Assembly: GCA_001542995.1 (NCBI GenBank)
Contig: LFLA01000019.1
Location: forward strand, 1-58,211
Reading direction: 5' to 3'
Origin: Nitrospina sp. LS_NOB
Lineage (GTDB): Bacteria; Nitrospinota; Nitrospinia; Nitrospinales; VA-1
DNA length: 58,211 nt
This document shows positions 14,025-40,699 of the stretch, in pieces; the stretch's first letter is position 1; each line of letters begins with the position of its first letter. Under the pieces are notes generated by a model, which worked only from the letters and a program-made list of their open reading frames with translations, was not told the origin of the DNA and searched no databases. A program made the position numbers and the translations under genes.

Positions 14025-15127
14025 ATGAGAGTTTACGCCCAACTTAACCAGGGACAACGATACCAGATTGAAGCACTCTTGAAAACCGGTCATAACCAGA
14101 CAATGATAGCCAAAGTACTTATCGTTCATAAATCAACCATCAGCCGGGAACTAAAACGTAATCACGGTCTCCGTGGCTACCGGCCAAAACAAGCCCGGAA
14201 AAAGGCAACGATGCGACACTATGAAAAATTTCAACCTCGTTTCCCCACAACTACCTGGGCCTTAGTGGAAGCCCTGATCAAACAGGACTGGGGCCCGGAG
14301 CAGATATCAGGCCATTTGTTTAAAGGACAAGGCATTTCGATCAGCCACGAAAGCATTTACCTCCATATTTACCAGGATAAGTACCAGGGTGGTGATCTCC
14401 ATAAACACCTGCGTTGTCAGAAAAAACGCCGCAAACGTTACGGCAGACAGGATCGCAGGGGACGTATCCCCAACCGTATCAGCGTTGATGAACGCCCGGC
14501 TATCGTTAACAATAAAGCCCGTATCGGAGACTGGGAAGGCGATACCCTCATCGGTAAAGGCCGGGGCGTTGTTGCCACTCTTGTGGAGCGCAAAACTCAA
14601 TATACGGTTCTGACCGCATCGAAAACCAAACAGGCCCCACAGATCCGCCAACGCATCGAACAGGTGCTGGCCACTCATCGAAACCGGGTTCACACCATCA
14701 CTTATGATAATGGCCTGGAGCTTGTCGAGCATCAAAAAATGGTTCAAACCCTCTCTGCCAATATCTACTTTGCCTCCCCTCCCTTCATAGAGAGCTTTGC
14801 GTAAGTCGATAAAGCAGAAAAACGAGATGCTTCGACAAGCTCAGCATGACAATAAAGGGCTGTTTTGTCATTCTGAGGAACAACGTGACGAAGAATCTCG
14901 GGGTTATGCAAAGGTCTCTTCATAGGGAGGGGGCTGAATGAAAATACCAACGGACTCATTCGACAGTATTTACCAAAGTCCCGACGACTGGACAACGTCA
15001 CACAAAAGGAACTGAAACACATCATGCATCAACTCAATCATAGACCCGGAAAAACACTTGGCTTAAAACACCCTATGAGCTATTCTTCAAAAAACAAACT
15101 TTACTAACTGTTGCACTTACTACCTGA
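14025..15127 (+). pseudogene. IS30-family transposase, split by a MITE-like insertion and a frameshift
   Basis: The N-terminal HTH is seen in QIEALLKTGHNQTMIAKVL and STISRELKRN. The DDE catalytic core gives DWEGDTLIG (first Asp) and ITYDNGLE (second Asp). The frame then stops at 14804 inside the inserted element. After it, LNENTNGLIRQYLPKS resumes in the same frame and carries the catalytic Glu. A further 1-bp loss near 15062 separates this from the family C-terminus KTPYELFFKKQTLLT. Removing the insert plus one 8-bp target duplication rejoins the frame, but the later frameshift remains, so the transposase is dead. Confidence 0.92.
14791..14917. mobile_element. MITE-like element, copy 1 (inside the IS30 transposase)
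   Basis: 127 bp with terminal inverted repeats AGAGCTTTGC and GCAAAGGTCT (one mismatch), flanked by an 8-bp direct duplication CTTCATAG at 14783-14790 and 14918-14925. Internal wording is GCTTCGACAAGCTCAGCATG and TTCTGAGGAACAACGTGACG. No coding capacity. Copies 2 and 3 are at 25986-26112 and 40475-40640. Confidence 0.88.
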
Positions 15128-25962: not shown

Positions 25963-25985
25963 TCAATTCGTGGCCGCCCTAGATG

Positions 25986-26112
25986 AGACCTTTGCATAAC
26001 CCCGAGATTCTTCGTCACGTTGTTCCTCAGAATGACAAAACAGCCCTTTATTGTCATGCTGAGCTTGTCGAAGCATCTCGCTTTTCTGCTTTATCGACTT
26101 ATGCAAAGGTCT
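25986..26112. mobile_element. MITE-like element, copy 2
   Basis: 127 bp, the same length as copy 1 but in opposite orientation. Termini are AGACCTTTGCATAA and TTATGCAAAGGTCT, perfect inverse complements in the outer 10 bp. It is flanked by CTAGATG (25979-25985) and CTAAATG (26113-26119), a 7-bp duplication with one mismatch. The right duplication contains the stop codon of the lytic transglycosylase gene. Confidence 0.88.
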
Positions 26113-26784
26113 CTAAATGGGCTGGAAACGGATTTTTCTGTAGTTTTTCAGAACTTTCCTGGAATAACGATGAGGAAGATAGCCTTTCCGGAGAAATCGG
26201 CTCAACCGCGACGGGCCCTGATTATAAGCCTCCAAAGCAAGGGTTAGATCGCCAAACCTGACTACCATCTTGTTCAGGTAATAAGCCCCTAAAGCTATAT
26301 TCTTTCTGGGGTCATACAGGGTGGGGGTTCCCTTCCATTTCAAATGGGTCTCGGACGCCAACGCGACCGCCGTAGCCGTTTTCAACTGCATCAAGCCATG
26401 CGCACCCCGGTTTGACTTCGCCCAATTGTAGAAAGAACTCTCGGTAATGATCAAGGCAGTGAGAAATAGTGGATCGTATCCGTATTTCCTGCTTTCCGCC
26501 AAAATCCATTCTGGAATCAGCACAGAACTGGTTTCATCCAGCCCTGTGTTATAATCAGAAATGATCAGGCGTATCTTTTCCCGAATACGGTTATCGTAGG
26601 CCAGCTCACTTTGAAAACGTGTTTCTTTTGCCTTATGGAACACACCCTCCTCCACCCGGCTTACCGCGGAAAAGAATGGTGATAATCCACTAACGTATTG
26701 AGGGGTTTTGCCCGTAAAGAACCCTGTAAACGCCAGAACCAGAAAAAGCGGAATTATAATCTGTTTTGCTTTGTAAAAGGTCAT
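26113..26784 (-). CDS. Lytic transglycosylase, SLT domain
   Basis: Cleaves peptidoglycan between MurNAc and GlcNAc. 223 residues with an N-terminal membrane-anchor/signal segment (IIIPLFLVLAFTGFF). The catalytic Glu is in ALIITESSFYNW, followed by SNRGAHGLMQLKTATA and NIALGAYYLNKM, then ALEAYNQGP, the standard family-1 lysozyme-like motifs. The stop codon lies in the target duplication of a MITE-like element, so the C-terminal end borders an insertion. The 200 bp upstream hold no gene. Confidence 0.92.
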   Translation of the reverse strand: MTFYKAKQIIIPLFLVLAFTGFFTGKTPQYVSGLSPFFSAVSRVEEGVFHKAKETRFQSELAYDNRIREKIRLIISDYNTGLDETSSVLIPEWILAESRKYGYDPLFLTALIITESSFYNWAKSNRGAHGLMQLKTATAVALASETHLKWKGTPTLYDPRKNIALGAYYLNKMVVRFGDLTLALEAYNQGPSRLSRFLRKGYLPHRYSRKVLKNYRKIRFQPI

Positions 26785-32769: not shown

Positions 32770-32960
32770 CCCGGCGAGCCGCCGGAGGCAATGGGAGGCC
32801 AACGCTCGCTTTACTCACGGGCCTTTGAAAAATTTGTATCCTCCCTCCCTTCATAGGGAGGGACTGAGGGAGGGTTGGATTTTTTATGGCAGGGGAAGCA
32901 GATAGCAAAAACTTACGAAGCCGAGAACATTATTGCTCATTGGGTCCAGCGTCACGCTGG
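32770..32960. repeat. Mixed interspersed repeats after the SHOCT lipoprotein
   Basis: Contains a GGCGAGCCGCCGGAGGCAATGG start of a 96-bp-family unit and the hairpin CCCTCCC-TTCATA-GGGAGGG (about 32842-32861). The same hairpin is found where copy 1 of the MITE-like element entered the IS30 gene. A second 96-bp-family piece ends with CCAGCGTCACGCTGG (32945-32959). The last piece is read as the C-terminus of the next gene on the minus strand. Confidence 0.7.
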
Positions 32961-40384: not shown

Positions 40385-40474
40385 CAGCGTGATACCCCAT
40401 TCGGGGCATGAAGGCAAATGATGGGTATAACTCGCTGGACTTAATGTGCATGTGACTTACCCTTGCAGGGCATG
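40385..40474. repeat. Repeat patch left of MITE-like copy 3
   Basis: Contains CCAGCGTGATACCCC...GGGTATAACTCGCTGG, an imperfect inverted repeat enclosing a TACCCCATTCGGGGCATGAA hairpin-repeat copy, and a further CCCTTGCAGGGCATG. Confidence 0.6.
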
Positions 40475-40640
40475 AGACCTTTGCGTAAGTCGATAAAATA
40501 GAAAAGCAAGATGCTTCGACAAACTCAGCATGACAGTAAAGAGCTATTTTGTCATTCTGAGGAACAACGTGACGAAGACGTGATATTTTTCCTTAAACTT
40601 CGTGCCCCGCAGGGGTAATCTCGGGGTTATGCAAAGGTCT
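40475..40640. mobile_element. MITE-like element, copy 3, with a nested 38-bp hairpin repeat
   Basis: 166 bp. The ends AGACCTTTGCGTAA and TTATGCAAAGGTCT and the internal wording match copies 1 and 2, but about 39 bp are inserted at 40572-40611. The insert reads GTGATATTTTTCCTTAAACT then TCGTGCCCCGCAGGGGTA, a copy of the separate hairpin-repeat family. It is flanked by GCAGGGCATG and GCGGGGCATG, which may be a diverged duplication. Confidence 0.85.
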
Positions 40641-40699
40641 CGCGGGGCATGGGGTACATCGAAGCATCTTGCGAGGGAGGCTGAGGTGAGGTTGTGCGT

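Follow-up and report, generated by a model that had tools for sequence, protein, structure and literature searches.

A 129-bp MITE with IS5-family ends in an IS30 transposase gene of Nitrospina sp. LS_NOB, and the palindromic targets of its family

MITEAba12 is a gene-less element of 113 bp which is mobilised by ISAba12, shares ends of about 16 bp with it and makes 9-bp duplications (PMC6382973). ISAba23 is reported with 5-bp duplications (PMC4110982). Several insertion sequences insert at the axis of repeated palindromes, among them ISRm22, for which 6-bp duplications are reported (PMC1525189). Short non-autonomous multi-copy hairpins were described as the Chunjie MITE of Geobacter uraniireducens and the QMITEs of Coxiella; QMITE2 had direct repeats of 7-9 bp, and its truncated copies resembled REPs (PMC10969869). 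No described MITE was found for the Nitrospinota in the literature search, and a search for GTCATTCTGAG gave, among the matches listed, papers whose titles pointed to unrelated subjects.

The window, which is the whole stretch of 58,211 bp of Nitrospina sp. LS_NOB that was analysed, carried an element that, by its sequence, appears to be of a known kind, namely an IS5-family-dependent MITE like MITEAba12. Both were short and gene-less, their identity to the full-length insertion sequence was limited to the ends, and 9-bp duplications occurred in both families. The ends read GGCTTTGTTGCA in MITEAba12 and GAGACCTTTGCA in the Nitrospinota MITE. MITEAba12 resides in Moraxellaceae, unlike the window MITE, and its duplication sequences showed no trend (PMC6382973), whereas the targets of the Nitrospinota MITE were palindromic. 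ISRm22 and the other REP-targeting insertion sequences resembled the window MITE in being inserted at the axis of palindromy of repeated palindromes, but they are autonomous and live in other hosts, and one fixed duplication length is reported for every one of them. The Chunjie MITE and the QMITEs were similar by description, as short multi-copy hairpins, and differed in their hosts. The Nitrospinota gain a defined MITE family together with a matching helper type.

An earlier note had placed a MITE-like mobile element within the IS30 transposase gene, which was confirmed by the copies and their duplicated targets. The features at the insertion were as follows.

14025..15107, + strand: host pseudogene of an IS30-family transposase, split by the MITE; a palindrome replaces HPYASWERG, and a frameshift lies near the 3' end
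14777..14783: left arm of the target palindrome, CCCTCCC
14784..14789: left copy of the target duplication, TTCATA
14790..14918, + strand: MITE of 129 bp, left end GAGAGCTTTGCGTAAG, right end (reverse complement) GAGACCTTTGCATAAC, delimited by copy alignment
14790..14808, + strand: left terminal and subterminal repeat GAGAGCTTTGCGTAAGTCG, matching the left end GAGAGCTTTGCATAAGTCT of the IS5-family element
14824..14899, + strand: MITE interior, two facing REP-like modules forming a hairpin stem, no transposase code
14904..14918, - strand: right terminal repeat GAGACCTTTGCATAA
14919..14924: right copy of the target duplication, TTCATA
14925..14931: right arm of the target palindrome, GGGAGGG

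The element read GAGAGCTTTGC…GCAAAGGTCTC, and its edges were set at 14790 and 14918 from the GAG...CTC termini shared by the copies placed side by side. The sequence CTTCATAG, which the earlier note had reported on both flanks, was indeed seen at 14783-14790 and 14918-14925. The duplication, said to be 8 bp, was reduced to 6 bp (TTCATA) because the other copies terminate in GAG...CTC: the C and the G at the two edges of the 8-mer belong to the element, as its final and its initial base. The size of 127 bp had to be corrected to 129 bp, since these two bases had been counted as target. The ends were inverted repeats, as claimed, pairing across 15 bp, and the MITE strand folded as one long hairpin (z = -6.0) with none of 200 shuffles as stable. 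The interior modules were GAGATGCTTCGAC...CTCAGCATGACA and TGTCATTCTGAG...CGAAGAATCTC. An Rfam scan of the window returned two tRNAs only and no other known RNA family. The MITE explains a repeat of the window which otherwise resembles part of a gene, and two further copies were revealed there.

25985..26113: second MITE copy
40474..40641: third MITE copy, a variant of 168 bp whose interior carries a 39-bp insertion

The second copy lay directly against the 3' end of a minus-strand ORF (26113-26784), and its flanks, TAGAT and TAAAT, resembled a decayed duplication. The 39-bp insertion of the third (CGTGATATTTTTCCTTAAACTTCGTGCCCCGCAGGGGTA) recurred in several copies elsewhere.

When the genome of the window (G000; 26 contigs totalling 2.65 Mb) was searched with the MITE, 97 matching pieces were found at more than 40 places. 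With one mismatch allowed, the end sequence GAGASCTTTGCRTAA was counted 142 times, while its reversed control did not occur at all. For the analysis of duplications, 75 paired elements, each with two recognisable ends, were taken from this genome and its relatives. Of these, 30 were flanked by a 9-bp duplication (one mismatch allowed), eight by a 6-bp duplication, three by a 5-bp duplication and two by an 8-bp duplication with one mismatch; altogether 43/75 had a direct duplication of 5-9 bp. The null, in which the left flank of one element was compared with the right flank of another, gave such a duplication in about 1% of the mismatched pairs (9-bp match about 0.2%, 6-bp match 0.2%). Three genomes of the same genus supplied another set, in which 9-bp duplications likewise predominated, many of them slightly decayed. 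Boundaries and duplicated targets were therefore shared by copies elsewhere in the genomes, so that the result which the earlier note had named as its refutation did not arise. The features by which a MITE is recognised were all found: the element is short, encodes no transposase, ends in inverted repeats, occurs in numerous copies delimited alike, and duplicates its target. Across the phylum, the ends were detected in 37 of 64 genomes belonging to the window's order but not in any of the 13 outside it; named matches assigned these genomes to the Nitrospinota. A scan of viral contigs for the end sequence gave 17 single matches. At L023 1501-1629, the 9-bp flanks ATTGTCAAT and ATTGACAAT were reverse complements of each other, which reflects either one mutation or an inverted copy.

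The element could be read instead as a REP/BIME-like hairpin, dispersed through recombination or by a Y1 tyrosine transposase of the RAYT type, with an incidental flanking repeat; its interior consists of two palindromic REP-like modules that face each other, and short palindromes were abundant in the window's genome. Against this stood the 9-bp duplications and the ends held in common with IS5-family elements. REPs mobilised by a RAYT are not known to combine conserved GAG...CTC ends with 9-bp duplications. The duplications largely refute this alternative, which is very improbable.

The ends pointed to the helper. Full-length IS5-family elements with the same terminal repeats were found in related genomes.

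L047 550-1761: full-length IS5-family element, 1212 bp, ends GAGAGCTTTGCATAAG / GAGAGCTTTGCGTAAG, perfect 9-bp duplication GTTCTAAAA
L160 1348-2501: full-length IS5-family element, 1154 bp, perfect 9-bp duplication CTTCGTAAG inside CCTCCCCTTCGTAAGGGGAGG
L055 1418-2582: full-length IS5-family element, 1165 bp, from the window's genus, intact reading frame of 306 residues

The L047 element was located inside an IS30 gene, and no clear duplication was seen at the flanks of the L055 element. The L047 transposase matched NF033581 (IS5) with 253 bits against a cut-off of 140, and also DDE_Tnp_1 (PF01609) and DUF772; 72% of its residues were identical to the L055 transposase, compared with 73% for that of L160. 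No match was obtained when the transposase was compared by sequence with solved structures. The sequence common to MITE and insertion sequence comprised about 19 terminal bases, GAGASCTTTGCRTAAGTC, and nothing beyond. The IS5 family is named as the helper type because full-length IS5-family elements carry the same ends. Very probably, then, a DDE transposase of the IS5 family moved the MITE in trans; it would recognise ends of 15-19 bp, GAGASCTTTGCRTAAGTC. This bears out the earlier note, which had made the element dependent on another transposase with the argument that its repeats were unlike the IS30 ends; the IS30 copy's own ends, TTCAACTAGTAAGTGCAAC, did not match them.

Among named relatives, the ISAba23 transposase was about 38% identical to the L055 helper, and the plasmid relatives of the helper, ISAba23 included, reached at most 45% identity among the matches listed. 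ISAba23 resembles the helper as a member of the IS5 family with 1249 bp, and the examined copy had the ends GAGACCTTTGCACGAA; it differs from the window MITE in being autonomous and in its reported 5-bp duplication.

Intact copies of the insertion sequence were detected in only three of 77 genomes of the phylum, most of which are fragmented assemblies where repeats drop out. An intact helper was not found in the window's own 26-contig genome, whose sole trace of it was a stretch of about 86 residues with 63% identity (C23:20780-21043), itself interrupted by a MITE. The helper may have been lost from the window's lineage, or not assembled, leaving this transposase fragment as a relic. In genome G010, several contigs terminated 40-55 bp from a terminal repeat, as would be expected if a multi-copy identical element, perhaps an active insertion sequence, went unassembled. 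One candidate for a full-length insertion sequence, G016:C2 34488-35872, was rejected, as two MITE ends flanked an unrelated gene there by chance.

The host gene matched NF033563 (IS30) with 199 bits. At the insertion place the related IS30 genes read FAHPYASWERGLNENTNG, and the window gene with the MITE left out read FASPPFIGRGLNENTNG, corresponding to native HPYASWERG versus SPPFIGRG. The window gene was also frameshifted near its 3' end relative to the relative in L110. The claim that removal of the element restores the transposase frame across the insertion held true, but the residues restored were not the native ones and the 3' end stayed frameshifted. An intact frame as proof of a functional ancestor was rejected on the same comparison with the native relatives. 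Since the palindrome replaces conserved residues and the 3' frameshift is present, the MITE cannot be said to have inactivated a functional transposase; the IS30 gene is altered at the insertion spot independently of the MITE.

Two more IS30 remnants in the window's genome, L044 and L043, were disrupted at the same codons. At L044 1301-1550, a MITE had inserted independently at almost the same codons, flanked by a duplication that has decayed, and the quasi-palindromic IS30 stretch may be an insertion hot spot. At L043 1480-1540, an IS30 fragment stopped at a CTCCC-GGGAG palindrome at the same codon as in the window, which suggests rearrangement at palindromes.

Such sites could mean that the MITE travels together with the palindrome around it, and that this composite, rather than the MITE by itself, landed in the IS30 gene. 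The window palindrome does stand in place of native IS30 codons, the codon at which the L043 fragment terminates in a palindrome of similar kind is the same, and the junctions CCCTTCATA were common to four copies of palindrome plus MITE. MITEs occurred, however, in several different palindromes, empty copies of the same palindrome were common, and no transposase is known here for the palindrome, which makes a composite unit unlikely.

The 9-bp sites showed a preference in target choice. Their consensus (n=38) was symmetric, CCC-CTTNNNAAG-GGG, and palindromy (n=48) averaged 5.6 of 8 pairs versus 4.5 in nearby flanks (p = 5e-9). The 6- and 5-bp sites went further than this, most of them being loops of CCC-loop-GGG palindromes in which the loop itself was duplicated: perfect CCC and GGG stood at the very edges of the duplication in 8/11 (null 0.1%), and the symmetry axis lay within half a base of the duplication centre in ten of the 11. 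The empty site of the window, CCCTCCC-TTCATA-GGGAGGG, belonged to this loop class.

The transposase would accordingly be one that prefers symmetric CCC-spacer-GGG targets, where the usual 9-bp spacer (CTTNNNAAG) would give a 9-bp duplication and a palindrome with a 6- or 5-bp loop would have its loop duplicated; the latter pattern was observed directly, and its mechanism is our proposal. We tentatively suggest that the target, and not the transposase, might set the duplication length, with spacers of 9, 6 and 5 bp giving duplications of 9, 6 and 5 bp. Cutting would then take place where CCC and GGG border the spacer, with the palindrome perhaps extruded as a hairpin.

With a single 9-bp stagger, in contrast, the 6- and 5-bp duplications would be 9-bp ones that lost 3-4 bp near one end, or would come from gene conversion or template switching between palindromes. 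The ends of L005 and L020, GGTCCC and GCTCCC, can be taken for 9-bp duplications from which the terminal CTC has gone, every 6- and 5-bp case came from one genome, and nearly all duplications in the other genomes were of 9 bp, apart from single cases of 7 and 8 bp; moreover, the four TTCATA cases may be interrelated, and L030 and L031 share one palindrome. On the other side, at least three unrelated loops (TTCATA, TCGGAG, ATGTAT) gave exactly 6 bp with a centred axis and CCC/GGG at the edges, and ISAba23, the closest named relative checked, was reported with 5-bp duplications (PMC4110982). A single stagger is a serious possibility, somewhat short of an even chance. The independent palindromes favour a duplication length set by the spacer over loss or conversion.

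This tie of palindrome spacer to duplication length is the only unusual point of the MITE, and the copies provide a natural insertion set for asking whether a DDE transposase reads palindromic targets whose geometry sets the duplication length. Palindromes of the form CTCCC-N2-10-GGGAG were found at 82 sites in the window's genome, whereas the reversed control gave 15. At 32845-32860 of the window, the palindrome of the insertion site recurred exactly, with no element in it. The CTCCC-spacer-GGGAG palindromes made up a repeat family of their own, sometimes in BIME-like pairs (L030, L031, L052), and at L052 231-796 a 262-bp composite element was duplicated in tandem along with its palindromic neighbour.
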